A program made the translations under genes and the position numbers. Of a stretch of DNA of 64,000 nucleotides, positions 20,091 through 48,583 are shown in pieces. Each line of letters starts with the position of its first letter. The stretch's first letter is position 1. The stretch is from Bryopsis sp. KO-2023 (taxonomy: Eukaryota; Chlorophyta; Ulvophyceae; Bryopsidales; Bryopsidaceae): the NCBI GenBank assembly GCA_030272585.1, contig BSYQ01000009.1:1426001-1490000 (forward strand), written 5' to 3'. The notes under the pieces are model-generated. The model searched no databases. It was not told where the DNA came from and saw only the letters and a list, made by a program, of their open reading frames with translations.

Positions 20091-21060
20091 AACAAATTCA
20101 AGTTTGAGTTGCACCACTGCGTTATCTTTACAAGTATTCATTTGTTTCTTCTCTGATAACGTTATGAGTTTTGTGTCCTTGGTCCGCTGTTGATTGTGGG
20201 GTGTTTTTGAGTATAACTTCGTTTTACGCTGGTTATCAAGTGTTTGGTGGTGAGCATACTATGGATCCGATCACGATCAGATCGGTCTCCGATCAACCGG
20301 GAGACCGATCATGATCGTGATCGGCCGATCACCGATCTGATCGGTCGCCGATCAAGTCTGCGATCGGCCGATCATCGATCACGATCGGCCGATCATCGAT
20401 CACGATCGGCCGATCATCGATCACGATCGGCCGATCACCGATCTGATCGGTCGCCCAACCTGATCGGCAGTTTTTGATCGGCCTGATCGTGATCGGCCGA
20501 TCAAAAACTGCCGATCAGGTGCCGACAGGGTGCGACGCTTGATCGAGATCGTGATCGGGATCGGAGCTGCCGATCAGATCGGTATCATGATCAATTGATT
20601 CCGATCATGATCGGTCCCATAATCAATTGATCGGTCAATTGATCGGTCCATCACAAATGCCCACAAGTCACCACCCGAAAGTGTTTCTGGAGGTGTAAGG
20701 ATTCGAACCTAAGACCTCACTGACTGGAATCAAGCAAATCAACGCTTGGACCACCCTGAACCACGATCACTAGGTTCTCCGTGTTATTATATACCTCAGT
20801 TTGTCGGACTGACTGATCAGGAAAATAATGACACGGAGCACACTCTAACCGTAGCTCAGAGTGGTCTAAGCGTCGATTTGCTTGATTCCAGTCAACGAGG
20901 TCCTAGGTTCGAATCCTTACACCTCCAGAAACATCTTCGGGTGGTGACTTGTGGGCATTTTCGTAAGACCGATCAATTGACCGATCAATTGATTATGGGA
21001 CCGATCATGATCGGAATCTTAAATTAAATTCCGATCAATTGATCCATGGCCGATCATGGT

Positions 21061-22127
21061 CATACTAGGGATCCGATGCCGACATGTCGGTCATCGATCA
21101 AACCGATCTCCGATCAAGATCGGCACCTGCGATTTCCGATCAAATCGATCATCGATCAGATCGGTCCGATCAAACCGATCACCGATCAAAATCGGACCGA
21201 TCACAAAAATCGGTCCGACTTTTCCGATCAAAATCGGCCGATCACCCAATTCTGCCTCGGAAACCAGATCGGATCGGGATCGGGATCGGCGTTTTCCGAT
21301 CAGATCGGATCTGCCGATCACCCACCGATCCCGATCCGATCATGATCGGAAATCGGGTGACGCACAAAGTAACCCCCGCAGGGTCCCCAGAACCCAAGGG
21401 AACCGAGTGGGATTCGAACACCATACCGCACGATGCCGAGTCATCTACACTGAGCGCTAAGCCAAGTGGACCACGATGATTCTGTGGTTGTTGCAATAAT
21501 ATACCCTAATTTCACAGAATTACAAACAGATTAAGGTATATGATCGCAACAGCCACGAAATCATCGTGGTCCACTTGGCTTAGTGCTCAGTGTAGATGAC
21601 TCGGCATCGTGCGGTATGGTGTTCGAATCCCACTCGGTTCCCTTGGGTTCTGGGGACCCTGCGGGGGTTACTTTGTGCGTCACCCGATTTCCGATCATGA
21701 TCGGATCGGGATCGGTGGGTGATCGGCAGATCCGATCTGATCGGAAATTTACCAAATTCACCGACTTCGCGCCTTTCATACCGATCATGATCGGTTCTCC
21801 CCGATCATTGTACCGATCAAAAAAAAAACGCCGACTTTGATCGGCCGACTATTCCGATCACAGCTCCGCGCCTTGATCGGATCGGGATCGGGATCGGCCG
21901 ACGCCGTTCTTTGATCGGATCGGTCGCCGATCTCGATTAATCGGTCCGATCAAGACACCGATCACCGATGATCGGCACCGATCATGATCGGTAAAAAAAA
22001 AAAAAAAAAAAAACCGATTATTTTTGTATCACCCTATAATAGACATTAGTGAAAATCCGATCCCGATCCGACCCCGTTTAGACCTATTTTTAGCAGGCCG
22101 ATCATTGCCTATCATATCCCTAGTATG
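21061..22127. mobile_element. hAT-like palindromic element, inner copy nested in its relative
   Basis: Ends are CATACTAGGGAT and ATCCCTAGTATG (inverse matches with small differences inside). The perfect 8-bp duplication ATCATGGT lies at 21,053-21,060 and 22,128-22,135. Length 1,067 bp. The body has the same GATCGG-word arms and the same poly(A) block near the right end as the outer element, but a different tRNA-like core: an inverted pair at about 21,345-21,500 and 21,555-21,735, with a B-box-like GTTCGAATCC at 21,621. The core includes a GACCCTGCGGGGGTTACTTT stretch shared with the 465-bp family. Insertion into a relative's arm is direct evidence of mobility. Confidence 0.88.
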
Positions 22128-22346
22128 ATCATGGTCGGAGCTGATCGGATCAACGGCCGATCAATCGGCGTTTCACCGATCTTGATCGACCGATCACGTG
22201 CCGACAGGTCGCGACGCTTGATCGTGATCGTGGTCGTGATCGGAGCTGCCGATCAGATCGATAATCGGAAGCCCGATCCCGATCACGATCAGGCTTTGAT
22301 CGGCCGATCACGATCATCGATCAGGTTTTAATCGGCCGATCACGAT

Positions 22347-22811
22347 CAGAGATAGGACTTGGGCCAAATTTTTGGTCCGACTCCGGTCCGGTCCGGTTAC
22401 GGTCGGGTTACGGTCACCGTACTACGGCCGTAACTCCGTACCGTAACCGGAGTAATATGTTGTTTTTACGGTACGGAACAGGTACGGTATAACTACGGTA
22501 GGCCCTAAATCACCGTGAAGTAGCGTGGTTCAGTGCTAAAGCGTTAGGCTGCAGTCAGTAGGGTCGCGGGTTCGAATCCCCCTGGGTTCCTTTGGAATCG
22601 CGGGACCCTGCGGGGGTCACTTTCTACGGTTTACGGTTGTTACGGCCGTTACGGTCGTTACGGTCCGGTACGGAGCGGTACGGAGTGGTACGGTGCTACG
22701 GTTACGGCCGTAAAAGTACGATTTTCTGACGAAAATTGTACTCCGGTTACGGTCCGGTTACGGTGGTTACGGTCCGGTTACGGTGACCGTAACCGTAAAG
22801 TCCTATCTCTG
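22347..22811. mobile_element. 465-bp hAT-like element with tRNA-like core (CAGAGATAGG family), copy 1
   Basis: Ends are CAGAGATAGGACTT and AAGTCCTATCTCTG, exact inverses. The 8-bp duplication ATCACGAT lies at 22,339-22,346 and 22,812-22,819. The arms are built of TTACGG/CCGTAA words. The centre holds a tRNA-like module with an A-box-like TAGCGTGGTTCAGTGC, a B box GGTTCGAATCC at 22,569-22,579, and GACCCTGCGGGGGTCACTTT after it. It sits in the right arm of the outer CATACTATGG element. Non-autonomous. Confidence 0.9.
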
Positions 22812-23070
22812 ATCACGATCACGATCATCGATCATGATCGGTAAAAAAAAAACAAAAAAAAAACCGATCATTTTTAGAATCATGTGGAACGAGATCGTGT
22901 CAGGTCAGATTAGTGAAACGACCTGTCCTGACATCGAAAATGGACGGCCGATCATTTCCGATCACGTCCATAGTATGGTGGTGAGAGCGATACAAATGGG
23001 CAGTTGAGGTTGATTTTTCGATGGTGGAAGCTCTGGAGGAGTATCTGCCTGTGAATGTGTACACAAGGAA

Positions 23071-23118
23071 GATCATCCCGAAGATCATCCCGAAGATCAT
23101 CCCGAAGATCATCCCGAA
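23071..23118 (+). repeat. Four tandem 12-bp units in the first vWA exon
   Basis: GATCATCCCGAA occurs four times in a row, encoding repeated IIPK. Normal vWA helices do not need this run. It begins with a GATC word, like the arms of the element next door, but the unit differs. Confidence 0.85.
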
Positions 23119-23912
23119 GATCAATCAGGAGCACCCAGATATAAAAGTCGAACTGCGATTTGCGATGGTAGCCTACAAAGACCATGGAGATGATGAGCAG
23201 TGCTACAATTTACCAGAAACGCACAATAGTTGCGGAGATTTTTGCAGGGATTGGAATCAAAAGGAGGACAAGATGGACCAGAATATGTTTTGGGGGCTTT
23301 GATGACGGCTACTCAATTGGGGGATTGGGAAGGGAGGGTGAAATTTGTTGTGCTCATCACAGACGCCCCAGCCCACGGCATCGACTGCAACGATGACCCT
23401 GGAGACAGGTGATAGAAAAATGCCATTCAAATTGCTCATCTGAAAAAAAGAAAACAGTTGAAAATCAGATAAATATGTGTAGGTGATTGAAAGTGGCTTT
23501 TGATGGGTTTTTCCTTTCTCAATCTTGGTGAGCGTTTCTCCTGTGTTTGCGCAGATTCCGTCAAGGTGATCCAAAAGGCCTGACAGTAAAAACGGTGATG
23601 AAAGAGCTGAGAGATCAGGACTTGGAGTTGATGTTTTGCCGTATCAAGCAACACGCAACAGCAAAGATGGAAGCCCAGTTCAGAAAATTCTATGATGACC
23701 AGAAAATTGGCAGGAAGTTGAAGACTACCAACCTTTTTGATCCCTCCAAGGTACTGCTCATGTTTTTGATGCCATGTGCACACCCGAGAAGGTCTATCCT
23801 CTGTTGACCTATCGTCTTTTGCTGAAACCTTGTCCCCTTTTTTGATATTTCATTGTTGCATGTGCACGATTTCATTTTGATGATTTTTTGTCATCGTCGT
23901 ACCTGTTGGCAT

Positions 23913-24377
23913 CAGAGATAGGACTTGGGCCAAATTTTTGGTCCGACTCCGGTCCGGTCCGGTTACGGTCGGGTTACGGTCACCGTACTACGGCCGTAAC
24001 TCCGTACCGTAACCGGAGTAATATGTTGTTTTTACGGTACGGAACAGGTACGGTATAACTACGGTAGGCCCTAAATCACCGTGAAGTAGCGTGGTTCAGT
24101 GCTAAAGCGTTAGGCTGCAGTCAGTAGGGTCGCGGGTTCGAATCCCCCTGGGTTCCTTTGGAATCGCGGGACCCTGCGGGGGTCACTTTCTACGGTTTAC
24201 GGTTGTTACGGCCGTTACGGTCGTTACGGTCCGGTACGGAGCGGTACGGAGTGGTACGGTGCTACGGTTACGACCGTAAAAGTACGATTTTCTGACGAAA
24301 ATTGTACTCCGGTTACGGTCCGGTTACGGTGGTTACGGTCCGGTTACGGTGACCGTAACCGTAAAGTCCTATCTCTG
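23913..24377. mobile_element. 465-bp hAT-like element with tRNA-like core, copy 2
   Basis: Same length and ends as the copy at 22,347, and near-identical (the one difference I noticed is gGccg against gAccg in an arm). The perfect 8-bp duplication GTTGGCAT lies at 23,905-23,912 and 24,378-24,385. It sits in the last intron of the vWA relic, a few bases before the final exon, where it may displace the branch point and polypyrimidine tract. B box at 24,135-24,145. Confidence 0.92.
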
Positions 24378-24994
24378 GTTGGCATAAAAGGGTTCCACTT
24401 CGTGTTTTGCTTGGATGAATCGCCTCTATGAATGGTCGGCCCTGGCAGGATCTTGTGAACGCTTACAATCTTTTCATCCAGCGTCGGTTGAACGATCAGG
24501 GAAATGAGGATCTCGTGACGGCAATTCAATTTGCTTCCTCCCCTCGAGTGATATTCAAAGGGCAGTCCATCAGAAGCCAACCCAGACTCACCACCCAACA
24601 AGGAGTGGGGACTTGCTTCGCACCTGCAATACAAGCAGCAAAGAAGCATCTGCTTTCATATCCACAACATACCCCATTGCTGATTTTCATGTCAGATGGT
24701 GAAGACCATGGCAGAAATGGTGTGGAGCCAATGCGGCGAGTATACAAGAAGTGCAGTATCCACGGACTCCAGGTCCATACTGTAGGGTTTGGATCTGGTG
24801 CACAACATGCGTTGCTGCATCAAATGGCGCAAGCTGCCAATGGCAAGCACCACACTGCCATAAATGGAGTAGAACTCTCAAGTGTCTTCGCCAACATCGC
24901 TGCTGGGTGCAATGCCATGGATGGGCTGATCACCAGATTTGGAGAAATCATTAGCGGAATGGTGGCCAACAGAATTGTGCTTGATCATTTGTGA

Positions 24995-27212
24995 ATTGTC
25001 TCATTTGAAGTACTCAGTGCCCGACCTCTTCGAATTGGGGAGGGCCATGCTGCACCAGTTTTTGTATTAAGAGTGTTAGGCTAAAGTCGAGCGATGTTTT
25101 TAGGGTGGTTTTTTCTTGATCTCACAACTGGCCCCATTTTTGGATACAAAGGGAGTCGTATTGGGAGCTTGTTTTTCCACTATAATTGTTTTTTAAAAAT
25201 TACGTATGCGTTCATTCAACCCAGTTGATTCCCCAGTTGAATCAATGATTCTTTTTCTTTTGGTTGGTTTTATGAAGAAAAAAAAGGGAAAGATATAGTA
25301 AAGGTTTGACCTTATGTTTGGGAAATATGTGTTTTGACACTTTCTATCTTTCCTCCCTGGGCAAGCAAGGAGATTCTGGATCAATAACAATGGTTAGTGT
25401 AAGGGGGTTGAAAACACAATGAAGTCCCTGCTGTATGTTACACGGGGACATATTGTGGGCTACTGAATTAAATCTCTGCACATATTGCACAAAACAAGAA
25501 CAAACCCTTCTCCCCCCCCCAAAAAAAAAGGAAAGGAATAAAAGCCCTTGCACACAAGCAGTCGAAGTTCAGGGCAGTAGGAAGTTATTCATTTTGGAAA
25601 GAACCAATAGATACTTGGAAAGGGATCGGGTTTTTTTTCCCCGAAAACTCGTTTCCTTTCTTTCCTCAAGCTGTCTGTTTTTTACTTGCGAAGAAAATGG
25701 CCTGTTTAAGGACTTCACACCGATCCGATTTTTTTTGTTCTCGCGCAAAGGCATCCATCTCCTCCCAACTCGCACAAGTCGTCACAGTGAAAGTCGACAC
25801 CACCAGCCATCGCTTCCGAGCATAACTCCGGATCAGTATCAATATTAAAAAAACAACACACACACACTAAATGAACCAGAGCACCGTTCTCGAAGCTCTG
25901 GTGTTCGACCTCAGCGAGCGTCTTAGAATCGACTGCTAGCCTCTGCGACGTCCTCCACATTCGTGTTCAAAATCTGAGTTTCGTGATCCGTGAGCTTACC
26001 GGCGACGCGATTGCCGCGCGCTTCTCGGTGACAAGACTTTCAACGCGAGCGGACCCTCCCTACAACCGTTTCCACAAAAGCGTCGTCCTCTTTTACTTGA
26101 ACAAGTAACTGTCGCCGCCATGTATATTTACGGTTCCGCAGGAAGCGCGGTTCCTTTTGCGGAGTTTTAGGGTGGGACGATTGAAAGGACTAATTGCTGA
26201 GGTGGTCTGTAGGGGTACCTTTTTGGAGTATTGGATCTCAGTAGTTTGGGTTCTTAAGCTCACTCAGTTGGTCTTTCTTTACTCGGTTTTTTCACCCATC
26301 CCGGAACTGCGTTCTTCCCTCCCTTTTGGAGATTATTTTTTGGTGGGCTTTGGGAGTTTTTATATAGAGCTAATAGGGACATTTTGATTTACTTTTGTGG
26401 TGCTTGGGATGCACAATTTGGCAGAAATTGGCACTATTTGTTTGAAGGGTTAAACGAGGGTTACATTTCTGTAAAGGTTTTCGATCTCTGGGTGTGGAAG
26501 AAAACGTAGCAGTCGAAGGAAATATATCCACCATTTCGACTGCAGCCTGCTCAATGGTGGCTTCCGCTTCCACGACCGGAGGGGGTTTTCGTTTCTCCAC
26601 GCGCTTTGTTTTTTTGCTCGCGGCGTTCGTAGGGGTGAAACGTTCGACTACCGCCAGTCTCGAAAAGCCTTGGTCCGTCACATCGAGTGGTTGCTCAAAG
26701 TGTGAAGGAGGAAAAACGTTTGAATCGATGTCACAAGTGCAATTTTGTGACAAAACACTTGTTCCAAAAATATCAAATCGCTGCATTTCCTCGATCATCC
26801 GTGTGATCGATGATCCGTTGATCCGCGTTTCGCCTCGTTTCAAGTTAAATTCGTTTCAAAAGTTCAATTTCAAGTTTGCATTTTTGTTCGAAGTTCGTTT
26901 TCTCTTCAATACTCATTGTCGTTGGTTTGAAGTTTTTCGGTTTTGATCGAGTCCGTTTGGTGGTGGACCTTTGTCCGCGCCAAAAAAAAAAAAAAAAAGT
27001 TTAGGAAAGAAAAAAAATCGAGTGCTTGGAACTCGAAGGCTCTAAGAGGCCGTGTTAGGGGAAAAAAAATCCTATATGGGAGGCTCGAGTGGTGGCTAAT
27101 TTGAATGGAAAGGAGGGACCCAATAAGGTACTCGGTTTTTTTGTAACTTTGTTTCCCGAGTCATAAATAAGAAAACTAAAAAATCCTCGTAAAACGGGTG
27201 GTCGGGTTTTTT
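24995..27212. other. Mostly gene-free stretch after the vWA relic
   Basis: 3' flank of the vWA relic, then A/T-rich DNA. A GC-richer patch at 25,870-26,130 could hold a small minus-strand gene: ATG at 26,120 in the context tacATGGCGGCG, and a strong donor gtaagc near 25,998. I could not extend it to a convincing product. Homopolymer A runs lie at about 26,981 and 27,062. Confidence 0.35.
26370..26798 (-). CDS. Hypothetical ORF, 143 codons
   Basis: Opens at an ATG (26,798, minus) beginning MIEEMQRFDIFGTSVLSQN and ends at 26,370, with a basic patch KKTKRVEKRKPPP in the middle. No domain is recognised. Composition is protein-like, but there is no neighbouring exon, homology or splice support. 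It could be part of an old element. Confidence 0.25.
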   Translation of the reverse strand: MIEEMQRFDIFGTSVLSQNCTCDIDSNVFPPSHFEQPLDVTDQGFSRLAVVERFTPTNAASKKTKRVEKRKPPPVVEAEATIEQAAVEMVDIFPSTATFSSTPRDRKPLQKCNPRLTLQTNSANFCQIVHPKHHKSKSKCPY

Positions 27213-27776
27213 TTATGCTTTTGTTTTCCGACCCATAAAAAAAAAACAAAAAAAAGGACGGGCTCTAGGAAGCCCGTTTTGAAACAAAATCGTACATGGG
27301 AGACTCAAGTATCTTCGTTGTCTGTCCACATTTTCGTATCGACCAGTTTCTATTGCCAAAACAGAACATCCCAATCTAAACCTCATATATAAAGAGCGAA
27401 GACTTCGATCTCCAATTGACTCTAAACGTTTTAAACCATCTCGCCCACAATAAAAAGAATTTAAATAGGACTCAACTTTAGGATACCGACCAGCCGAATC
27501 AAACGTTTGAGAAACCCAATAAACCTTGTATGCTCTTTGCCAAGCCTGAATGTCAATAGAACCATCCTCTAATAATAAAGGAGATGATGAACTGGAAGTG
27601 AAAGAATCTAACAATTGCCTCATTTTTTGAAACCACATAACCGTCCCAGAATCTTTGCCTTTAGCAAACAATCGAGCTGCCATATTTTGTACCGAAGGAT
27701 TGACCAAATGATTCCAAAAACGAAAAGCTTGTCGAATAAAATAAAAATGAAGAGGTTTCACTTTGAGGTCCAACAA
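27213..27776 (-). mobile_element. LINE (non-LTR retrotransposon) reverse-transcriptase C-terminal fragment
   Basis: The minus-strand frame reads PLHFYFIRQAFRFWNHLV, later YMRFRLGCSVLAIETGRYEN and RQRRYLSLPCTILF. The pattern R.R.G...L..E.GRY......R and a following Cys region is typical of the end of LINE reverse transcriptases, although the usual closing Cys-Cys pair looks altered. No RT catalytic core is seen upstream (higher coordinates), so this is a 5'-truncated fragment, as is usual for LINEs. It lies between direct short repeats and A-rich tracts. Confidence 0.55.
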
Positions 27777-27786
27777 TATTTTTCAC

Positions 27787-27960
27787 TTTGAAAAACTCGA
27801 CCAGCGCCTTTTGCACGCGAGAGATGCAAAGATGTATTTTCGTTCGATCCCTTGGATCCCTTTGTTGCTGCCGCCTTGTTTTGGACGAAACCGAAAACGA
27901 TTTGAACCGCCTGAAAACTCGACCCAGCGCCTGTTGCACGCGAGAGATGCAATTTTTTTA
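27787..27960. repeat. Pair of about 45-bp repeats
   Basis: GAAAACTCGACCCAGCGCC followed by TTGCACGCGAGAGATGCAA occurs at about 27,787-27,833 and again at about 27,912-27,958 with small differences. Function unknown; it may mark the end of an old element. Confidence 0.6.
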
Positions 27961-28047
27961 CAGACCAAAACTCGATTCAAACCAGTTCAGCAAAAATAGA
28001 ACTCAGCGAAGGGTGGGAATGACTGTCGCACTTCGAAGTTGACGGCC

Positions 28048-28291
28048 TGATACGAACATTATGTGTTCGTAGTGGTCGTCCGTGACTGGAATACGTCCGT
28101 ACCATTTGGTCGGACGAGATCTAGCCCATCCTGGTTGATCGACTTGGACGAGGACGAGATCCCTCGATCTCGTCCCGGACAGACCCTATAAGTACCGTCC
28201 CTAAACCACAAACCTAACTCTCTGATTCTCCCTCAACAACCTCGTGAGCCCCAAAAAGGCACCCGGCCCTATGGGCCTAGATATTGTATCA
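28048..28291 (+). repeat. Left LTR of the outer element
   Basis: 244 bp, TG...CA ends. Appears identical to 53,522-53,765. Confidence 0.95.
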
Positions 28292-32795: not shown

Positions 32796-35700
32796 TCACG
32801 AACGAAGTCGCCTACTTCGACGTACCGGAATAGGGGGAATCAACGTTGATTTCTTTCTCTTCTGGTACTGCTCTACCAGCTCCCGAGCGTTCTCCAAATT
32901 CGCTTCAGGCTCCCAAGAGTTGTGCTCATGTGAGTATCCCGTCCACTTTACCAAGTACTGCGGAACTACTCGTCGACCGACCTTTACTTCACGGTAGTCG
33001 AGGAGGTCTTCTACCTCATACTCTAATTCTTCCTGTATATCCACAGGTGGCGGAGGAGGTTGTGTCTTTCCATGCGACCAATACCTCTTAAGTAAAGAAG
33101 CATGAAAGACTGGATGAATAGGAAGCGAATCAGGCAATTCCAATCGGAATGCTACCTGTTCTGCCATCGGTTTTCGTTTTTGGACACCTTCCAAAACACG
33201 AAAAGGACCCAACCAACGTGGCAATAACTTCCTTGATCCAGGGTGTTTCAATTTGATATGTCGTGCATCCAGCAAGACCATATCGCCTACTTGAACATCA
33301 ACTGGACACCTACGCACATCGGCATGAGTCTTCATCCTTTGCTGAGCACTTTCCAAACACCGCTTTGCTTTGACAATCGCCTCACGAATGTCTTCAGTCA
33401 TCTTCTTCACCGCCGGTACTCCAATTTGTGTCCTTTGTCTACTTAGACCTCTAGGACCCATGACATTAGATGTCTTGGATGGAAGTTGTACCGTTAATGG
33501 TGTCCACGGATCTCTACCGTAGTTCAAGAAGAACGGTGTTTCACCAGTAGCCATCGACTTAGAGTTGTTCAATGCAAACTCTACCACTGGCAACAAGTCA
33601 CTCCAATCTCTTTGACGAGGTCCTACGAAATGCCGTAAGGTATCTTCGAGGATCCTATTCATTGCTTCAGTCTGTCCATCACTCTGTGGATGAAAAGCTG
33701 TCGACAATGCTTGAGTGACCCCTAAGGTCTTACAAAGCTCTCTAAAGAACTTTGAAGTCCACCTAGGATCTCTATCGCTTACGAGGTGCTTAGGAAGGCC
33801 GTGCAAACGGAAGACCTCAGTAACGAAGAGTTTCGCCGTTTGTACCGCATCACACGTAGTGTGCGTTGGTACGCATCGCACCATCTTTGTGAGTCGATCC
33901 ACAAAAACTAAGATGGCATCAAATGCTTCTGCTCCTGATTTAGGCAAATCAGTAATCAAATCCATTGAAACTGATTCCCATCGACCATCAGGTATACGTA
34001 AAGGTTGCAAAGGACCAGGCACCTTGCCGCGTCGGTGTTTGTTCCTTTGACATGCATCGCATCCTTTTACGAAGTTTGCGATATCTCCTTCTACGCCAGG
34101 CCACCAAAAGTATTTCAAGACTGTTCTTTGGGTCTTGCGGATCCCAAAATGTCCTGCATATACACTTGCATGGCTATCATGTAGGATATCTTCTCTAAGA
34201 TTATCCCAATTTGGTACTACTACTCGTGCACCATTCCACCACAGGCCTGAGTGCTTTTGACAACCTGAAGCGGCGACATCTTCGGTTTCAAACCACTCAT
34301 CCCTAGTGATCCCCTCAGTCAATCTCTCCTTTAGCATCGACGTACCGGGCCGGGGCGAGGACGGATCCCCATTCCAAGTTGGTCGTTTCTGGCCACCTCC
34401 CAGCTCCGAGAGTATTCCGATCTGCTGAGAATACGACGGATATCGTGACAAGGGGTCTGCCACGTTCGTCCGACCCGGCCTGTATTCCCACTCGAACCGG
34501 AACCCCTGGAGGACTTCGAGCCAACGTGCCGACCTTCGAGAGAGAGTTTCCTGGGAATGGAAGTATGTGTTAGGCTGGTGATCACACACCACCTTAAACA
34601 CACGCACGTCCAAGTAGCATCGCCACAACTTAAGAGCATGCACTACGGCGAACATTTCCTTGTCACCTATGCTCCAGTTAAGTTGGGCTCCTGATAACTT
34701 TCGACTTTCAAAAGCTATAGGATGTCCCTCTTGCAACAAGATTGCACCGATCGCATAATCCGAAGCATCTGCGATAACTTCAAAATCCTTTTCGAAGTTA
34801 GGCATTGCCAAACAAGGTGCATGTGTTAAATTCTCTTTAACACCATCAAAGCCTCTTTGACAATCCTCGGTCCAACTCCACTCTTTACCCTTCCTAAGTA
34901 AATTTGTGAGTGGGGCTACAAGCTTGCTGTAACCTTGCACAAATCTCCGGAAATAGTTAGAGAGCCCTAAAAATGAACGCAATTCCGCAACGTTCTTTGG
35001 GACTGGCCACTCTACTACTTTCTCTGTTTTCCTCTTATCAGCGGAAATACCATCTTGATTTATAACAAATCCAAGATAGTGAAGCTCTTTCTTAAAGAAA
35101 TCACATTTTGATCTCTTCAAGAACACTTTGTGCTCACGCAAGCGTTTCATCACCGCTCGCAAATGTTGCACATGTTCCTCCGGAGTTTTGCTGAATACAA
35201 GTATGTCGTCAAGGTAGATTAGAACCGACTTCCCAATCATACCCGAGAATACTCGATTCATCCAAGTCTGGAATACTGCAGGTGCATTCGTCAAGCCCAT
35301 TGGAAGCACTTTGTATTCATACAGACCGAATGGGGTTTTGAAAGCAGTCTTCGGTTGGTCTGACTCCTTCACTCGAAGTTGCCAATACCCTGCTTTCAAA
35401 TCTAAGGCCGAAAAGAACTTCGAACCTTGCAGTTGATCAAGGAGATCATCTATCCTTGGTAGTGGATACTGATTCCTGATCGTCAACTTATTTAAGCCTC
35501 TATAGTCGATACACATCCGTCGAGTACCATCCGGTTTGGGAACAAACAAGATTGGTGCACCCCACGGACTACAACCAGGCTTAATCAAACCCTTCTGCAG
35601 CATATCAGAGACTTGCTCCTCAATCTCTTTTCTTTCACCCGGTGTGTAACGAAACATTGGTCTATGTACCGGTTTCGCTCCAGGGACAAGATCGATTGCT

Positions 35701-38102
35701 GCATCCTCTTCTCGAGATGGAGGGCATTCCGCCAACTCATCTGAGAATCTGTCTTTATACTCTGTTTGATATGAAGACACTCGAGGATTTTTGGGCAATT
35801 CGGGTACCCCAGATTCCTCCCCCTCAAAAGGGTTCAAGACCTCCCGAACTATAACCAGAAAAGGACAAATCTCCTTATTACGGAGTTGTCTTCGAGCTTG
35901 GGCTATGCTCAACAAGGGATTGATCCGTGCATTAGGCGGACTAGGGGCACGCACAACCAAATTAGGTCGTATCGTGAGTCGGTTTCCCCGTGTAGCTAGA
36001 ACCGAAGCACTACCAGTAGAAAAATTCATCAGTACTCGGTGATTGCATAACCACACATCCCCGAGGTACAAATCAAAATGCTTTGTAGTGATAACTTGAC
36101 ACTCGATTTTCATCCGCAAGCCTTGCAAACGCAAGTTAATCGAGGTTATCCCTACGATATCCAATGGAGTTCCATCGGCCATTTCGATTTTGGTACCTTG
36201 CTTACATCTGTAACTAAGCCCTGTACTTTCGCAGAAATGCTTAGAGATATAAGCGTAGCCAGCGGCGCCAGAATCTAACAGAATCTGACCAGGGGAACCA
36301 GAAATCAAACCTTTGAACGACATTGACATTCTGAGATTACAATCCTCTCCTGGAATCGAGTTACCGGGTAACTCCGCTGTAGGTGGATCGTAATATATAT
36401 CAACGGGCCAAAGAAGACCTGGTGCTTTACCGCTGCTAAGAGCAAACAATTTTGCTCCTTTTCGATATTGTGCAATCAATCGCATTTGATTGATTTCTTT
36501 TTGTCTAACTACCATATTATGAGGGATTAATAGGCAGCAACTCGTAGAAGAAGGTGACTCTTTCTTGCAAGCAAAATAATGCTTTAAGAATTCATTCAAA
36601 TTCTTTCGTCCAGGATCCATCCAAACATGGTGTCCCGCTACTGACGATGCAAGAAACTCTTGTCCAGTGCAAAACTTTTTACAAATCGCAAATCTTTCAT
36701 CATTAGTAGATGAGTCAAAAGTGAACTCTCTATTTGCATTCTGCAAACGATGAAGTTCCGATTTTAAAAGTTGCATTCCAGAGATGCAATCGTTCTCCGG
36801 CACCTTCTCTTCTTTACTAGGCATAGGATCTTGGGCGTCCCCAATGGGATCGACGTCCAAATCATCCTCACCACATCGGATAGAGTCATCATTTCTGTCA
36901 ACAGACATAACCTGGTCAGGGTCATTCTCCACAGAAATATCCGATTTGTTCTCGGGCTCCGTAATATCTGTATCCATCGGATCAAATATTACATCTTTCG
37001 GATCTGAGTTTTTCGATACCTCCTTTCGAGATAACCCAGATGCAAGAACTTCTATACTAGGAAGTTCTTTCCCGAAACAAGCGAGACTCTTCCGTACCTT
37101 TCCAGTATCACACACATGACCTGGAGAATAAGATGCTCCACATCTGAAACAAAGGTTCGCGGCCTTGCGCCGTTCCCACTCTTTCTGGCTAAGACCCGCA
37201 GGAAAAGATGTTTTACCAACTTTACTCTTACGAGTCTGTTGAGAACTACCACCAAATCTCGGTGAAAAACTCGGCATCATTCGGTTTTTCTTCCGATTAA
37301 CCGGATACACCTTTCCTTTTTCTTCTTTCCGAGATCGCTTTGATCCAACGGTACTCTCCTCCTTTTCTTTGGCACCTTTTTCCAATACTGGGTATCGCTC
37401 ATCATGCGATACTCCTTTTGCCAATACATGGGTACGGAATTCCTCATATGAAGTCCATTCATGACCCGAAGTATCAGTGGCAACCGCTTCCTTCAACACT
37501 CCATGGAGGTTGCGGTGTAAGAACCAAATTTTTGAAATACTATCAATTTTGGTCTTACGAAGAGTAAAATATGTGTCCATTTGGCGCACATATTCTCCAG
37601 TATTGCATCGCCGGTTAATGTGGTCTTTGAATGTGGACAGTTTTTGCGTCACCGCATATTCGGTGGCCAACTCACCAAAACTTCCATCATCCATAGCAAC
37701 ACACATTTCCTCCCAAGTCAGGTTTCCTCCAGAAATTTTCTCTTCCCCGACTCGAGCGATGAGGTGCTTGATTCCCTTGGGTCCCAAGAATGTTGGTCCA
37801 ATCCGACCCCATTCTTCTCGAGGAACCCCCTCGGCAATCCAAAAGATCTCCAAAATGACCTTATGTTCTTTCCAAGGACATTGGCCATCAAATTTATCAG
37901 GCTTGGCCGTGGAAGACTTTTTGCTTCCCGACCCTACAGAAGTACTACCCTTTCTGGTAGCCACTTCACGTTCCCGCTCACGGTCATCCACCTCTTTACG
38001 GAACGCCTGATGTTCAGATTGCATCAAAGCAATCCGATTTTGGAGTTCTTCTACCGTTAAGGTGGTGATGTCCTCTTCACCAGAAGGGTCTGGTCTCGAC
38101 AT
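32796..38102 (-). CDS. Gag-pol polyprotein of the Ty3/Gypsy chromovirus
   Basis: 1,768 codons, ATG at 38,102. Domains in order: gag with a plant-style zinc knuckle (CFRCGASYSPGHVC, about residue 320); aspartic protease (LLDSGAAG); reverse transcriptase (YRGLNKLTIRNQYPLPRIDD, then YLDDILVFS); RNase H (IADASDYAIGA); integrase with an HHCC zinc finger (GHFGIRKTQ...CDACQRNK), a catalytic core (MDLITDLP, VSDRDPRW, TEAMNRILED); and a C-terminal chromodomain (YEVEDLLDYR, YLVKWTGYSHEHNSWEPEANL). The chromodomain places it among chromoviruses. A single fused gag-pol frame is common in this lineage. Confidence 0.97.
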   Translation of the reverse strand: MSRPDPSGEEDITTLTVEELQNRIALMQSEHQAFRKEVDDREREREVATRKGSTSVGSGSKKSSTAKPDKFDGQCPWKEHKVILEIFWIAEGVPREEWGRIGPTFLGPKGIKHLIARVGEEKISGGNLTWEEMCVAMDDGSFGELATEYAVTQKLSTFKDHINRRCNTGEYVRQMDTYFTLRKTKIDSISKIWFLHRNLHGVLKEAVATDTSGHEWTSYEEFRTHVLAKGVSHDERYPVLEKGAKEKEESTVGSKRSRKEEKGKVYPVNRKKNRMMPSFSPRFGGSSQQTRKSKVGKTSFPAGLSQKEWERRKAANLCFRCGASYSPGHVCDTGKVRKSLACFGKELPSIEVLASGLSRKEVSKNSDPKDVIFDPMDTDITEPENKSDISVENDPDQVMSVDRNDDSIRCGEDDLDVDPIGDAQDPMPSKEEKVPENDCISGMQLLKSELHRLQNANREFTFDSSTNDERFAICKKFCTGQEFLASSVAGHHVWMDPGRKNLNEFLKHYFACKKESPSSTSCCLLIPHNMVVRQKEINQMRLIAQYRKGAKLFALSSGKAPGLLWPVDIYYDPPTAELPGNSIPGEDCNLRMSMSFKGLISGSPGQILLDSGAAGYAYISKHFCESTGLSYRCKQGTKIEMADGTPLDIVGITSINLRLQGLRMKIECQVITTKHFDLYLGDVWLCNHRVLMNFSTGSASVLATRGNRLTIRPNLVVRAPSPPNARINPLLSIAQARRQLRNKEICPFLVIVREVLNPFEGEESGVPELPKNPRVSSYQTEYKDRFSDELAECPPSREEDAAIDLVPGAKPVHRPMFRYTPGERKEIEEQVSDMLQKGLIKPGCSPWGAPILFVPKPDGTRRMCIDYRGLNKLTIRNQYPLPRIDDLLDQLQGSKFFSALDLKAGYWQLRVKESDQPKTAFKTPFGLYEYKVLPMGLTNAPAVFQTWMNRVFSGMIGKSVLIYLDDILVFSKTPEEHVQHLRAVMKRLREHKVFLKRSKCDFFKKELHYLGFVINQDGISADKRKTEKVVEWPVPKNVAELRSFLGLSNYFRRFVQGYSKLVAPLTNLLRKGKEWSWTEDCQRGFDGVKENLTHAPCLAMPNFEKDFEVIADASDYAIGAILLQEGHPIAFESRKLSGAQLNWSIGDKEMFAVVHALKLWRCYLDVRVFKVVCDHQPNTYFHSQETLSRRSARWLEVLQGFRFEWEYRPGRTNVADPLSRYPSYSQQIGILSELGGGQKRPTWNGDPSSPRPGTSMLKERLTEGITRDEWFETEDVAASGCQKHSGLWWNGARVVVPNWDNLREDILHDSHASVYAGHFGIRKTQRTVLKYFWWPGVEGDIANFVKGCDACQRNKHRRGKVPGPLQPLRIPDGRWESVSMDLITDLPKSGAEAFDAILVFVDRLTKMVRCVPTHTTCDAVQTAKLFVTEVFRLHGLPKHLVSDRDPRWTSKFFRELCKTLGVTQALSTAFHPQSDGQTEAMNRILEDTLRHFVGPRQRDWSDLLPVVEFALNNSKSMATGETPFFLNYGRDPWTPLTVQLPSKTSNVMGPRGLSRQRTQIGVPAVKKMTEDIREAIVKAKRCLESAQQRMKTHADVRRCPVDVQVGDMVLLDARHIKLKHPGSRKLLPRWLGPFRVLEGVQKRKPMAEQVAFRLELPDSLPIHPVFHASLLKRYWSHGKTQPPPPPVDIQEELEYEVEDLLDYREVKVGRRVVPQYLVKWTGYSHEHNSWEPEANLENARELVEQYQKRKKSTLIPPIPVRRSRRLRS

Positions 38103-39318
38103 CTTAAAGAAGGCTAGTGATTAACCTGCATCGCAGGAAAATCAATCCATCAGCATATTTTCCTCATGTATATTGGTTCTTATCAAAGTACCAACTATAC
38201 ATTGACATTCGTGGATCAAATTTGTATCTCAATACAAATCATCCCTATGAAAATTGACCTTGTATTCAGTGAAAATCATTCACTTTCGCAAATACAATCA
38301 ATTTTCATTGAAGGCAACTCATTTTGCCTCATGCCAAATCAAGAAAATAATCGCTATTCATTCTCTCATTTTAGCGGATTATCTCTTCAACTCGATTTTA
38401 TCGATCAACAATCGTCTGTCTCCATTAGCGAATGACGACAAGTCCTATTCCTCTAGGCTCAAGAGAGCGTACCATACCATACGAACCACTAACAAAAGCC
38501 CTCAATTTTACACAGACCACTGCGCTAGCAAACCGATCCCGAAAGACCAGGGGTCTAGTGATTTCAAAGGGCAATAGTGACTCTCCGTACAGCTAGGATA
38601 GGAGTGCCGAGTAACGCTTTTTAGACGTGAAAATTGCCGAATCGATTTAATCAAATATCCAAGATCAACCCTAATAAAACTCAAGAGAAATGAACTTCCT
38701 TCTTCTTACTTCCCTCATCTCCTTTTATTGACCAAATAAAAGGTCTCCTTTTGTTATACCGACTCAAGCTCCCCTAGCACTTGAGTCCTTATACTCGTTC
38801 CACCATCTAAGAGAGTACTCTTAGTGGCTTCTCGCGAGCATATGGTACAACAACCTCTTTACTCTTAGTATCTTCAGGTGTTAACCCTGCCCATACAAAG
38901 TTAACCCCACCCTTTGGATAAAAGAGAAACTTTTATAGTTCAAAAACTATACTATCTTAAAGTCGCAACGTGTCGACGTTCAAAATGATTCTAAAACATC
39001 ATTTCGATCGTTCAACACCTAGAACCGACACGGACGACCTCAAAACACTCAAATTCCGACGCGAACTTTAAAACGTCATAACTTTGCGCACACGCATCGG
39101 ATTCACTCGCAACAAATTGCAACGGATGCATCTTGTTCCGTAGATGCTTTTAGACACCTTATATGTTCGATTCCGTGACGTATACGGTCCGGAACGGGCC
39201 AAAACGTGTCGCTAATCGAACAGCTCCGATTTCCCTGCAGAAAATCCGCGCGCCGCAATAAGCAGTGCGACTCCACTTTCCACACGATAGGATGCTTGCC
39301 AAAGCTCCGAAACCAAGT

Positions 39319-39585: not shown

Positions 39586-40170
39586 GTCGCACACAGAACG
39601 TGCGCAGGTTTTGCTGGAAGTGCGCAGCGAATGTTGGCACTGCGTAAGTGGATGATGTGACGCGCAGCAGCCACAGGAAAGCGCTGCACATGCGAAATTG
39701 CACTGCAGACGACAGAGTTACGCTGCGTGCAGCGGATTGCAATGTCGATGGGACATTTCGCGCAGATGCAGGCTGGGCAGCCTATGCAGGATGCAGGGAC
39801 TGCGCAGTGTTTATGGAACTGTGCAGCTCTTGATGGAAGTTCGCAGACGATGTTGGGACTGCGTGTCGATTGAAGGAACAGCTGATGCAGGGATCGCGCA
39901 GCTGACGCTAGGATCGCGCAGTTGACGCTGGAACGCGCAGCTCTGTGCAAGGTCGGCACAAGGTGCAGGATCTGATGGACTTGCACAGAACGTGGCAGGT
40001 TGTATGCGAGAGTGAGAAGTGCGCAGCACACATTAAGTTGCTGCGACCAGGAAGAGTTGCAGTGTACGCTGTGAGTGCGACTGATGCAGGCATCGCTTAA
40101 CTGACTCAGGTTGAGCGCAGGTTGAGCGTAAGTTGAGCGCAGACGTGAGATGCAAGAGTGTTACGTACTT

Positions 40171-43100: not shown

Positions 43101-46100
43101 GGACCCCGTGTGCGACTCGATTCGATTTTGTGTGACCCTGTGGAACTCAGCCGCCACCCTCTCTCACTCTTTACACGGAAGTGCGTCGGCGTACGGAGCG
43201 CCTCGCGTAACAGGTGTTACCTCAGGGGAGGGTAGCCTATGGGCGCGGAGTCCATTCCGAAGTTGGAGTGCCGGTGCAGCCGCAACTACGGAGAAGTGTG
43301 TAAGTCTGGTGGATGGAATTTCTGCAGGTGGTGGTCCGGGCAAGGACACTGGTGCAGGGAATTCTGGAGACCTTGAGGAGAAGGTGAGCAGTGTTGCAGG
43401 AGGTACCCACTAGGCGACGCGTGGGACCTGCAGACTGTGAGTTGGTAGATGCTGGGCGGGGAGTCGCAGCATCTGCAGATTTTCAAGGAAAAGTTCTGAG
43501 GTGCAGTGCGGGGAGTACTGACTTGCAGAATTTTTGGAGGAGGATTCTGAGCTTGAGGGGGTTGTTGGGCCGAGTGTAGCCACGACTGCTCAGCTCTCGG
43601 AGGCAGGGTGTGTGTGGTCATGTGGGGCCACACCTGACCTGCATGATGTGTTCTGCAGGCACATCAGATTTGTTTTTGTGAGCGAGGAGTTATGGGCTGG
43701 GTAGACCTAATGAAGTCTACTTTAAAGGACATAGTCCAAACTTCGAAGTGAAGTGTACATGCCAGGCAGGCCGTGTGCGGCGTGCGGCTGAAATGAGAAT
43801 ACATGCCAGGCAGATTGTGTACGGCGTGCGATTGATGCTTTGAGAAGGAACTGAATTTTGATTGTCGGTGATTTCATGACGTGGAGAAAAATCGTTTATA
43901 CGACAGGCGTGGATGTAGAATCAGAATAGCTACATCTCGTCTATAAACTAGAAGCTAGCTGGGATTCTGAAGTTGGCTGGAGAAATTTTCAGTGGATGCA
44001 GTAACATGTGAACTGCATCTGATATCACCTTTTCAGATTGATGAAGGAAGGTAGTTGAGTCGAAGGAAAATACAATGATCTTTTCTAGGAGTTGCAGAGT
44101 ATGCAAGACCTCAGCTCTAAAGGAAAGAGGATCAGAGTATTGGTTTAGAAAAATATCTGATGCATTATGAGATTTATCTTTGTGGTGTTAGTATTTGGTG
44201 CCACCTGAGTATGGCTGATAAAAAGGGCAGATACAACCACCTACATAAGAGCTTTCATTTCAGTTTTGAATATGGAAATTGGTTTGGCAAATCAGTGGCA
44301 GAATGACAACATTTAAAAGGCTGGAAAATGAGAGATTTGGGCTCTATTTCAGACTGCAGATGGAGTTGCAGTTTTGTACTCGAAAGGAGGACTCTGATCT
44401 CTATTTTACAGGTCCATAGACTGGTTGTTGGGCTGAAACATTTCTGAGGGACATTCAGGGTTCCCTAGAAAACTTATGATTGTGCCAAAGGGCATCAGAG
44501 ATAGCAATTTTCAGTGACAGAGTTTGGTATTGTTGCAGTCACTTTTGGACTTAATTGGTAGTGACTAAAATCTGGAAAATGCTTTATTTTGATTCGATAC
44601 ATTAGATCTGGTTTGAGTTGCAGATTTTCAGGAGATCAAGAAAGAAAATCAGGAGTGAAGTGTATATGTCTGATTTCTTTGAGAAGTATATATATACGTG
44701 GACCAGCGGTAGTTCAAATATTATTGTGAGAAATATAAAGCTCAGAAGGAAAAGCAAAAGGATTTTCAGTTTCTGAAGATCTATCTCTGATTTGGTGTTT
44801 GAATCAATGGAAATCAGCAGAGTTAAAGAAAAGAAAAGAATAGTTCTCTCAGATTTTCAGGCAGGATTCAGATTTTCAGGTGGATTTCTTTTTGAGTTTG
44901 TTTGCAGTGGTTAGACATGAAGTATCATGAGTTGGCAGCTCTTTTATTTCATGACGATGTACTAGTAAACACAATGGGCTAGTGTTTGAACTTGATGCAT
45001 GGATAGCATGGTGTCAAAGATCAGGAGCTGAAGGTTATGACATTCGATGGTCAGGTTCAGCTCTACATATGAAGAAACACAAGGGACTGTGAAAATTTTT
45101 GCAGGCAGATCTGGCAATGTTATGGGCAGTTGGTAAATTGCAGGTGCAGAACCTGTTAGCTGCAGGGATACTTTGCAGGGCTGCAAAATTTTCTGTGTTT
45201 TCTTTATTTTCTATTTCTTTTCGGATCAATGGAACAGAAATAGCCTTGATCTTTGGTGGTATGATTGGTGTATATTTGTGTGGACAAACTATATCAGAAA
45301 GGTTGAGAACTGAACATTTGGTTACAATCTGGGGCAGCAGATTTTTCTGACTTTGGCAGAGCAAATTCAGGCCTTCAGTTTTTTTTTTTAGGCTTGTTTT
45401 TCTGAAGTAGTTTGTTCAGTTGTTTGGGGTTATTTGGCTGCTCCGCACAGCTCAACTTTCTGTAGCTGGTACAGTGATATGGCTTTGCATGGTTGCATGG
45501 TTTTGCTTGAGGACAAGCTCCATTTCAGATGGGGAGGGGGCCTCAGTTGAACCGATGCGTTTCATTTTTGTTTTTCCAAACTTGCATTTATTTCAGTAGG
45601 TGTTGCAAAGAGACACACATCTTCATCAAGGTTCTAAGGAAAGGAAGAGGTTGTTAGTAGTACTCTTTCAGAGCTGATGGGAATTGATGGATAGTGTTTG
45701 CAATATCTTGGTGGTCAGTAAATATGTGTTTTCAGTTCTACTATTCTTGCAGAGTGGATTAAGCAACTAGGCATAGTTCACTACTTTGGGACGAGGCATA
45801 ATGGAACATTTGTAGTCTTAGCAAGGATGTTTCTGGTGGACTGAAATATTCTGGTACGTGACACATATTTTGCTGTGGATTTAGTTGGTTTGGAATTTAC
45901 AGAAGTTTGCAGGACCATTGATTGAGTCAGTTGGATTGGTGCTCACTTGAGGTTACTGAATTTCAGAGGGTACATTGGTATGGATTCTTTCAGCACTCAG
46001 TTGTAGGATATTTATTTGAGCAGCAGAGTTCAAAAGAAAAAGGAAATGTCACTGAGTGAAGTCTTGTTGGTTGAAAGAAAGGGTTGATTTCATTAAGTCA

Positions 46101-47261
46101 GGATAGGCCAAGTGGAGTTTCTGGGTTTTCATATACTCTGGTTTGTATAGATTCATATATGGGAAAACCGGAGAAGGCATGGAAGAACTCGGGAACAATT
46201 AATGCAATCAATCTGTAGGTACTCTGAACATTCATGACTCAGGAGAGAGGAAGCAGGAACAGAAGGGAGCATGCTTCAGGGAAAAATTGAGGAGCAAGCT
46301 CACTTCTTCATTGAAGAACATCTGGAGACTTGTTGTTGCAAGATCCTATCGCTCGCTTTTCATTGCTATGCGGAAGGCTAACTTGGTGGAGACATGTGGC
46401 AGCTCACTATGCAGCAAGGAGCTTCAACTCTGAGGAGCTGCTGGAGTGACTGGTGATCTCTTGGTTTTCAAAAGGTTGGAAACTTCTTTTGGGAGACAGA
46501 ACTTCAGTCATTCAACCTTCTTCTTTACTCCAAGACAGTTTGCATATTGTGAAAGTGGTATTTTGCTGAGTTGCAAATTTTGGCAGCAACAGTTTGTAGA
46601 GTTCTGGATTGTGGCAGCACCAGTTTGCTGGGTTGCAGACTGTGGCAGTAGTTGCAGAGAATTTGCAGATTGTGGTAGTGGCAGTTTGCAGGTTTTCAAT
46701 ATGCAAATGTTGCTTTTGAAATTATGGGGCAACATGAAGTTTCAGAAGTTTGGGTAGTTGCAAAATATTTGAGCAGAATAGCAACATTCTTATCTTAAAG
46801 AAGGCAGAAAAGTGAATTGCTGAGACTCTGAAAGCTGCAGCAGATTTTTGCTATTTTTCTGTTGGATTTTCTTATGGTCAAAATAAAAATCTGTTGAGTT
46901 AACAGGCTGCAGAAAGGAATTGAATTTTGTTCAGTAGCACAGTACAATTCCGAAAGAGAAGTTCATTCGGGTTTCTTGTTTGTGTTATTGGGATTTTTCT
47001 GAGCAGTTTTCTAGGCAATTCAAAGGTACACATCAGAATGTTGAGAAAGAGGCTATATTTTATTTTGCAATTTTTGTCGAAAAGATATTTTCAGTGGTCA
47101 GTCCTTCCAAAAGGTGTTTGGCAGTTGGCAAGATGGGATAGCAACTTTTCAAACTGAACTTTGAGGCAGAAGTTTTCTTTGGGTGTTTGAAATCCAAGGG
47201 ACAAGGTTGTTATCGTTCTCTTAGGGCAGTAAGGGACTACTGCCAACTAGATGGGGAGGAA
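40171..47261. other. Body of the middle LTR element, no gene seen
   Basis: About 7 kb of moderately AT-rich, CAG-poor to TGGCAG-rich sequence with a few short frames only. A GC-richer island at 42,540-43,640 contains a 114-codon frame (43,069-43,413; its start is not an ATG) and a tRNA T-arm-like CTCGGGTTTGAATCTGAG near 42,894. Neither is convincing as a gene. Confidence 0.5.
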
Positions 47262-47911
47262 TGTAGTGATTCGGCAGAATCAAAGGCGATTCAGGCAGAC
47301 CTGCAGGCTTGCAGACTGGCAGTGATTGGGCTGACAGGTTAGAGCTGCAGGTTGACTGCTATGATTCTGCAGAAGCAGGAATGGTTCAGGTCCTTCAGAC
47401 CTGCAGACTAAAGGACTGGTAGTCAGCAGATTGGCAGACTGACGAAGTGGCAGAGTAGTCGGGCTGACAGGGTTGCTGATGGCAGACAGGTGCTGGCAGC
47501 GTTGCAGAACGTGGGCTGCAGAGCTGGCAGGCACAGGGTTCTAGAAGGTCTTAGGTGGCAGACTCAGGACCGCAGTACCGTGCAAGGTGTCTGAGGCTGC
47601 ATGTCATGAAAGGGGACTGAAAGGAACTTGGTAGTTTGATGGTCTGCAACACTGATGCAGACTGATGTTATGGCTTAGGATCAGTTTGGATCAGGGTTGG
47701 AAGAAACGGTATAAGTTGTTGGGGCTTGGACATTCTTGTAACTTAACCTAACCTTAGTTTGGAACCTGATCTCGCCCTTGAACCTTGCTAGGTTCAAGTG
47801 TCTCTCCCATGGTCGTTCAATAGAACGGCAGTTCAGACTGGCAGACCGGCAGGGTCGCAGTCTTCAATGGACTTGAGTGGAAAAAGCGATCTGCAGGGCA
47901 GATTCGTTACA
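47262..47911 (+). repeat. Right end repeat (LTR) of the middle element
   Basis: 650 bp with TGTA...TACA ends, flanked by the polypurine tract on its left and GTCGT on its right. Confidence 0.88.
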
Positions 47912-48583
47912 GTCGTGGTAAACACCGAAAACCACCGAAAACTACCGAAAACCACCGAAAACTACCGAAAACCACCGAAAACTACCGAAAACCACCGAAA
48001 ACCACCGAAAACTACTCACGAAAACCACCGAAAACTACCGAAAACTACCGAAAACTATAAAAATCGACATGATAAAACGAAAACTTGAACAGTAAAAATA
48101 AATTTATAACGGGGAGTCCACCGAAAAAACCCATTACACACAAAAGAAACTAATACATTCATTTTGTTTATATGAGTGAATATGTTACAAATGGTATGGA
48201 CTCTTGGTTTGGTTCCAGTGGCTCCTTGGTTGGTTGACTCGGGTTCGAATCCCGAGGGTCACACTTGCATACCCACTTGCCGATAAGTACTATCACTCGG
48301 AGACTCACTTGTTACCACTCTGAAAGTAAATGTCTTGTTTGAAATAGTCTTGAATATTTATCTTTCCCTTTTCCTTTTATAAAGGGTAATCGCTGCATAG
48401 TTACAGTTTTTATAGTTTTCGGTAGTTTTCGTGAGTAGTTTTCGGTAGTTTTCGGTAGTTTTCGGTGGTTTTCGTGAGTAGTTTTCGGTGGTTTTCGGTG
48501 GTTTTCGGTGGTTTTCGGTAGTTTTCGGTGGTTTTCGGTAGTTTTCGGTAGTTTTCGGTGGTTTTCGGTGTTTACCACAACCG
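47912..48583. mobile_element. Palindromic element with tRNA-like core (ACCGAAAAC word family)
   Basis: The left arm (about 47,917-48,060) is tandem ACCGAAAACC/ACCGAAAACT words with one ACTCACGAAAACC variant. The right arm (about 48,411-48,570) is the inverse, with the GTGAGTAGTTTTCGG variants mirrored. The outer ends read GTGGTAAACACCG and CGGTGTTTACCAC. The centre has a tRNA-like module with a perfect T arm, TCGGGTTCGAATCCCGA, at about 48,239-48,255. An 11-bp GGAAATAGTGG lies on the far side of the middle LTR element (31,055-31,065) and again at 48,584-48,594, a likely target duplication whose exact limits are unclear. The middle LTR element inserted within the first bases of its left end. 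Confidence 0.75.

Follow-up and report, generated by a model that had tools for sequence, protein, structure and literature searches.

Short interspersed nuclear elements (SINEs) are the usual transposable elements with RNA polymerase III (Pol III) promoters, and those derived from tRNAs have A and B boxes followed by a 3' tail. Among DNA transposons, Ac/Ds of the hAT superfamily make 8-bp target duplications. The maize Ac transposase binds subterminal AAACGG repeats; Ac/Ds have short terminal inverted repeats (TIRs) and transposase-bound subterminal NCGG hexamers, and Ds derivatives keep these ends around assorted, unrelated filler (PMC3260210). Long inverted arms made of internal repeats are described for the Foldback-type elements Galileo (PMC3688188) and Tetris (PMC4079207), and the Galileo arms hold multiple transposase-binding sites (PMC3688188). 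MER6, a mammalian miniature inverted-repeat transposable element (MITE), has DNA-transposon ends around a piece of a SINE (PMC6887750). Here we describe small palindromic elements in a 64-kb stretch of the Bryopsis sp. KO-2023 genome (the window, C9:1426001-1490000) in which inverted ends enclose arms built of one short word, and the arms enclose one or two modules with the A and B boxes of a Pol III promoter. Most named matches to the ribosomal protein SA of this genome come from green algae and land plants. Judged from their sequence, the small elements are probably non-autonomous hAT transposons, that is, MITEs with Foldback-like arms and a Pol III-type centre that would help their mobility.

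The window elements resemble each of these systems in part. Like Ac/Ds they have short TIRs, subterminal NCGG hexamers and filler between retained ends, and four of the five make 8-bp duplications. They differ from Ac/Ds in that the words are numerous in every arm, which extends over a few hundred bp, in that the word varies by family, and in that the filler is a Pol III-type module in several families. Galileo belongs to the P superfamily, and the abstracts on Galileo and Tetris mention no tRNA-like core (PMC3688188, PMC4079207). MER6 has mariner ends, and the SINE body that it retains excludes the tRNA-related head (PMC6887750). The cores described here resemble tRNA-derived SINEs in their boxes and 3' part. 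Unlike SINEs, the elements have TIRs, 8-bp duplications and a hAT partner, and they therefore presumably move by transposase rather than by reverse transcription. The initial annotation of this DNA knew of no described group with these traits. Long short-repeat arms do have a precedent in Foldback and Galileo, but the full combination of hAT ends, word arms and tRNA-like cores was not found among the papers listed in full-text searches of the open-licence PMC literature, judged by title and abstract start. The recurrent Pol III-type core is the new part, while the ends and repeat arms have precedents in Ac/Ds, Foldback/Galileo and MER6.

The elements and their modules, found by reading the sequence and with a script for 12-bp inverted ends with identical flanking 8-mers, are as follows.

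20255..22977, no strand assigned: outer element with GATCGG words and the hAT ends CATACTATGGA, flanked by the target duplication GTGGTGAG; contains the elements at 21061 and 22347
20651..20801, minus strand: outer element, left Pol III-like module (type I), facing left, with its B box at 20699-20709
20814..20964, plus strand: outer element, right Pol III-like module (type I), facing right, with its B box at 20906-20916
21061..22127, no strand assigned: inner element with GATCGG words, lying within the outer one; ends CATACTAGGGAT, duplication ATCATGGT
21410..21419, minus strand: inner element, B box of its left module (type II)
21621..21630, plus strand: inner element, B box of its right module (type II)
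22347..22811, plus strand: TTACGG element, ends CAGAGATAGGACTT, duplication ATCACGAT, one type II module, nested in the outer element
22569..22579, plus strand: B box of this TTACGG element
23913..24377, plus strand: second TTACGG copy, ends CAGAGATAGGACTT, duplication GTTGGCAT
47910..48583, plus strand: ACCGAAAAC/GTTTTCGGT element (the 47,912 element), one Pol III-like module, no target duplication in the window copy
48242..48252, plus strand: B box of the ACCGAAAAC element

The initial annotation had proposed five elements in three families, built on one plan of inverted ends, single-word arms and B-box modules. All five are present and the common plan holds, although the copies at 21061 and 22347 are nested in the element at 20255 and the two GATCGG copies, whose ends differ, fall into separate families. 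The perfect 8-bp duplications that it reported for four copies are those at 20255, 21061, 22347 and 23913 (4/4 window elements at 20255-24377, the length expected of hAT), and the script recovered these four clean insertions among other pairs. No stop-to-stop frame of 200 amino acids (aa) or more lies inside the window elements. They have the characters of MITEs, being short, bounded by TIRs, devoid of a transposase open reading frame (ORF) and present in many near-identical copies derived from an autonomous element.

The arms are made of their words to an extent far above chance. Against 200 dinucleotide shuffles per element, none of which scored as high in any of the four cases, GATCGG occurs 53 times in the outer element minus its nested copies (shuffle mean 4.6) and 50 times in the inner element (3.7), TTACGG 17 times in its element (1.4), and ACCGAAAAC 25 times in the 47,912 element (0.1). 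GATCGG, TTACGG and GTTTTCGG, together with GACCGG and GTACGG of two further families described below, contain CGG preceded by A, T or C. The same words cluster at the ends of three full-length hAT elements, h788, h839 and h784, whose terminal ~600 bp hold most word sites, with a few internal: GATCGG counts per 250 bp run 17,1,0... 2,10,7 in h788, 11,3,0... 6,8,0 in h839 and 18,5,0... 8,9 in h784. The right end of a fourth, h350 (L071), is rich in TACGG. By analogy with Ac and with the repeated TIRs of Galileo, there is good reason to regard the clustered words as putative transposase-binding sites; the proposal that the arms may be expanded binding arrays gains from this analogy and from the autonomous ends.

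These full-length partners come from a search of the genome (91.1 Mb, 28 contigs) with the hAT dimerisation domain (PF05699), in which 150 of 185 candidates were scored and 150/150 were matches. Three are complete elements with perfect duplications and an open frame containing PF05699: h788 (6205 bp, GCCAGAGC, 788 aa), h839 (6811 bp, CCCCCAAG, 839 aa) and h784 (5991 bp, GTTGTATC, 784 aa). The closest solved structure to h788 is Hermes, over 82 residues at 3.2e-9. All three frames contain what we take to be the D, D, E and CxxH motifs. A protein search with the h788 transposase returned one strong relative (P0001, 39% identity) and one weak match, and h350 matches the three transposases over 60-98 residues of the C-terminal region only, at 37-45%. 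The two GATCGG elements align with the partners at both ends. Positions 1-141 of the outer element are 96% identical to the left end of h788 and positions 796-1175 are 92% identical to its right end; positions 1-249 of the inner element are 94% identical to one h784 end and positions 700-1067 are 88% identical to the other. On these alignments the outer element is h788, and the inner element h784, with the middle replaced. The TTACGG element has 105 bp at 97% in common with the h350 right end, which lies near PF05699 in 24/28 loci, at variable distance. The autonomous hAT genes with matching ends that the initial annotation had proposed to look for thus exist: h788/h839 and h784 share ends and terminal words with the GATCGG elements, and h350 shares its right end with the TTACGG element.

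The association extends to other copies. A 784-type hAT lies within 3.5 kb of 20/42 exact inner-family ends, two of these at one gene, and one further inner-family end adjoins a 350-class hAT in which that end is nested. We examined 21 exact outer-family ends on C1 up to 7.76 Mb. A B box lies within 900 bp of 12 of them and a hAT domain within 3.5 kb of 5; the other 4 are near neither, and by these limits no end is near both. The hAT-bearing end at C1:10996 has a B box 1.8 kb off, inside a TTACGG copy. Because no end in this sample has both, outer-family copies appear to carry either transposase or core. Taken together, alignment of ends, words and genes identifies the four window elements at 20255-24377 as hAT derivatives with cognate transposase genes, and the small elements as internal-deletion derivatives whose centre has been replaced by one or two A/B-box modules. 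The full-length hATs would in principle be able to move the small elements of most families.

Each GATCGG hAT also has a second, convergent ORF (L072:4460-5500, L073:5059-6075 and L074:4397-5500, all on the minus strand), which makes it a two-gene hAT. The C-terminal ~150 aa of the second ORFs are conserved across families (38-63% to the h839 copy). Two of the three were scanned against Pfam with no match, and the second ORF of h839 had no relative among 5.8 billion proteins. Structure predictions were too poor for use (predicted local distance difference test 40 for the second ORF and 46 for the transposase). At L071:4960-5140 a TTTTACGG array occupies an apparent (by eye) intron of the h350 transposase gene.

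The families have many copies. The end CAGAGATAGGACTT has 393+397 exact matches in the genome, CATACTATGGATCCGATC 120+103, CATACTAGGGATCCGATG 20+22 and TGGTAAACACCGAAAACC 12+17, with none for the reversed control in any case. Over 464 bp, at least 40 TTACGG copies show no difference from the window copy (40 scored of 554 candidates). The retrieved DNA includes 27 distinct TTACGG copies in which both ends are exact. Perfect 8-bp duplications flank 24 of them, the exact B box is present in 26 and an exact 15-nt hairpin in 23. The target preference of hAT elements is nTnnnnAn, and these 24 duplications, read on both strands, have T at position 2 and A at position 7 in 31/48 half-sites each. Retrieved outer-type copies with both ends (L106-L110) have perfect 8-bp duplications in 5/5. 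Two further outer-type ends, L111 and L112, have no matching second end within the retrieved stretch; L111 starts like the h839 left end, and L112 diverges from the element after ~70 bp. In the TTACGG copy L063 a TTTACGG array stands in place of the core.

It could be argued that ordinary satellites and independent SINE or tRNA insertions merely lie side by side, and the words are indeed in tandem arrays. Exact target duplications and TIRs, hundreds of ends genome-wide and a constant order of parts make a coincidental plan highly improbable. Loss of the common core from other copies would also have pointed that way, and an exact B box is present in 24/25 paired TTACGG elements (contig C1 below 9.22 Mb). 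Of the 21 outer-family ends, 12 are near a B box, 5 near a hAT domain and 4 near neither.

The cores carry the elements of a Pol III promoter. All seven occurrences of the exact B box GTTCGAATCC in the window fall within the elements (3865 bp of 64 kb), one in each of seven modules; a looser 9-base B-box pattern has 33 matches throughout the window, against a mononucleotide-shuffle mean of 14.1. Genome-wide, GGTTCGAATCC occurs 873+853 times versus 5+3 for the reversed control. An A-box-like sequence lies 39-56 bp upstream of the B box in 6/6 modules tested, more weakly in the TTACGG and 47,912 cores, which gives the A and B boxes at tRNA-like spacing of a type 2 Pol III promoter. In 5/6 modules tested a TATA-like sequence precedes the best A-box-like match by ~24-39 bp; the right outer module has none at that distance. 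Downstream of the B box, a T4 run is present in two modules, the right outer one and the 47,912 core. Paired modules point outward: among 100 listed B-box sites, all on C1, pairs less than 300 bp apart were divergent in 14 cases, convergent in 0 and on the same strand in 1. In the inner element the paired 3' hairpins are at 21372 and 21654, a spacing of 282 bp.

We aligned 16 type I cores from 8 elements over 152 columns, of which 79 are invariant. The B box (11/11) is the longest invariant run, followed by 9/13 columns of the A box, 11/16 of the 3' hairpin and 10/32 of the anticodon-like spacer. The two boxes together are invariant at 20/24 columns against 59/128 for the rest (Fisher p 0.0008; the rows are related, making the value indicative only). 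The initial annotation called the core tRNA-like, which the tRNA model does not bear out. RF00005 has no match in 19000-25000 at E up to 10, nor at E up to 5 in six loci, five of them with cores of this kind; in its genome-wide search 63 of 8630 candidates were scored, and 63/63 were over the cut-off. A cmscan of the whole window against Rfam found no match at gathering scores, and the matches in 19000-25000 (E up to 10), mainly to miRNA models, fell below gathering scores and were attributed to the palindromes. ARAGORN reported no tRNA in the window cores or in 20 B-box loci (L086-L105); its five window predictions, four tRNA-Asn-like copies and one tRNA-Thr, are outside the cores. Because the boxes are conserved, base pairs lack compensatory changes, the tRNA model is unmatched and the TATA-like/T4 pattern is present, we read the core as a Pol III-promoter-like module of predicted activity rather than a recognisable tRNA.

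The core might instead matter as RNA, a tRNA-like head with a 3' hairpin serving, for example, as a small-RNA precursor or to titrate a silencing factor. The hairpin has some of the expected conservation: its 13-nt ACCCTGCGGGGGT is invariant in 9/9 aligned core-bearing TTACGG copies, subfamilies included, and present in 24/27 TTACGG copies, and in the type I hairpin none of the four stem pairs is lost in any of 16/16 cores, although two of the pairs show G-U changes. Yet compensatory changes occur in 0/28 base pairs, single-strand folds of four window cores (DNA parameters) are no more stable than shuffles, and the sequence scanned has no Rfam match at gathering score. We consider an RNA function unlikely.

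The plan recurs in families identified by the core alone: two more families, outside the original set, were found from the B box or 3' hairpin, giving the genome of many copies with varied words and one plan that had been foreseen. Of the 100 listed B boxes on C1, 30 are near TTACGG ends, 22 near outer-type ends and 1 near ACCGAAAAC ends, and 6 are in other inverted pairs (L086 and L088 of one family, L087 a further GATCGG element). L086 is a 1305-bp element with ends CAGACCTGGG, the 8-bp duplication CACACTAC and arms of GACCGG (15+10) and GACAGG (13+7, a word without CGG); ends of its type number 78+67 genome-wide. Six of 100 listed L086 ends lie within 7 kb of a hAT match, of differing classes. 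At C6:3043651-3050497 a pair of CAGACCTGGG ends 6.8 kb apart (C6:3043651, C6:3050481) surrounds a 350-class hAT match, a possible autonomous member of this family or a nested copy.

The second family came from the 3' hairpin GGACCCTGCGGGGGT, which occurs 256+220 times genome-wide and in 30/34 paired TTACGG elements on C1. Of 43 hairpins listed on C1, 32 are within 300 bp of a TTACGG end, 10 are in pairs 282-283 bp apart and 1 is neither. One such pair lies in a GTACGG element, C1:275638-276600 (963 bp), with ends CAGAGCTGGGCAGTA and the 8-bp duplication GTTACAGG; its word occurs 8 times in the 444 bp read (mononucleotide shuffles mean 0.27, max 3). The exact family end is found 25+27 times genome-wide and stands beside 7/14 hairpin pairs listed on C1 and C2, one other pair having an inner-family end. 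The end of the GTACGG family (ends CAGAGCTGGG) is also that of a further, separate class of hAT genes, lying within 1.1 kb of the gene in 5/6 cases.

The 47,912 family follows the plan on different ends, and here a hAT identity, which stands for the other four window copies, is not supported. Its arms are 96.6% complementary over 146 bp, and its build is Foldback-like. With the ends CGGTTGTGG/GGGTCGTGG fixed, duplications are 9 bp in 4/8 copies and 10 bp in 2/8; the window copy and L085 have none, and the 8-bp duplications of hAT are thus missing. None of the 150 scored hAT matches lies within 10 kb of any of 29 exact 47,912-family ends. Mutator duplications are 9-11 bp long, the length found in 6/8 copies, while no transposase gene of Mutator-like elements (MULEs) shares these ends: a search with the PF10551 model alone gave 13 MULE matches, none within 20 kb of the 29 ends. 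The family (ends GGGTCGTGGTAAACACC) might still be hAT with imprecise duplications, as the shared plan and the CGG word would allow; 9-10-bp duplications at fixed ends, ends that do not start with CA, and the distance from every scored hAT match render this quite improbable. The element would then carry this plan between ends from a different superfamily, which may be Mutator- or Foldback-like. A further GATCGG element, at L085:365-1305, has paired cores, other ends (CATACCAGGGA) and the duplication CAAGTGAG, and it is nested inside a ACCGAAAAC element.

How might a Pol III-type core serve such elements? The cognate hAT transposase would grip the TIR and clustered words, as Ac transposase grips AAACGG, and move the small elements so bound. 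TFIIIC would bind the A and B boxes, and Pol III would start in the centre, outward where modules are paired. Their occupancy may keep the element open, unsilenced and available to the transposase, and the same plan may have been reached in several families because core occupancy keeps elements accessible. That the core is transcribed by Pol III and retained for accessibility or silencing resistance is the less well supported part of this proposal. A broader version is a fair possibility, though we stop short of calling it probable: a guild of DNA transposons in which the central Pol III promoter is a working part that has repeatedly been recruited or exchanged, and in which Pol III occupancy would counter silencing or improve accessibility for cut-and-paste transposition. 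Such a guild would cover four kinds of hAT-type ends, three of them common to hAT genes, and one other superfamily, with paired promoters firing outward through transposase-binding arms.

The core could also be passive filler. On this view a tRNA-derived sequence was captured on one or a few occasions and spread via ends that hAT transposases accept, its boxes conserved by youth. Cores of the inner and TTACGG elements have 54 bp in common at 85%, the exact 3' hairpin of the inner element recurs in the GTACGG family, there too as pairs with a 282-bp spacing, and many copies are identical; common filler is also reported in maize Ds1 elements (PMC3260210). Set against this, modules of this kind sit in families whose ends are unrelated (types I to III and the 47,912 core), including one that is non-hAT, and the type I boxes are more conserved than the rest of the core, with the caveat on related rows given above. 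We regard passive filler as possible but less likely, and prefer a centre that aids mobility.

Several results weigh against that preference. Cores of three families share sequence and are therefore not all independent; if types I and II are related, which their hairpins hint at by eye, there may have been as few as three independent recruitments (one for types I/II together, one for type III and one for the 47,912 core). In the ~90-100 bp tested beyond the B box, the TTACGG, inner and left outer modules have no T4 run, and the TTACGG copy L063 keeps both ends without a core. A TTTTACGG array is also present within the h350 gene, and the left end of h350 was not seen, L071 being cut on the 5' side and L012 having a nested h784 copy. 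No hAT partner was settled for the L086 family. Finally, 41 of the 100 listed C1 B boxes are not near the ends used, and only 2 of 17 single sites retrieved from those 41 are word-arm palindromes: L096 and L101, which are the same palindrome, while the other 15 have no inverted arms within 701 bp.

With promoter modules central to cut-and-paste elements whose ends are unrelated, and with open cognate transposase genes alongside, one could ask directly whether a DNA transposon moves more readily, or escapes silencing, when Pol III/TFIIIC occupy it. They are also a natural series of hAT elements with differing words and matching transposases, useful for studying how hAT transposases read subterminal sites.

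B-box modules also stand beside apparent (by eye) Ty3-type long terminal repeat/gag regions at L071:3750-4030, L102 and L092-L094, and the L071 module adjoins a pol ORF. Other classes of transposable element in this genome may also hold tRNA-like promoter modules. The four tRNA-Asn-like copies in the window, at 19458, 56274, 56839 and 59297, have no gathering-score Rfam match, and two of them form an inverted pair inside 56199-56991. On the minus strand at 32796-38120 lies a 1774-aa open Ty3/gypsy-like frame with, by eye, a chromodomain at its end.

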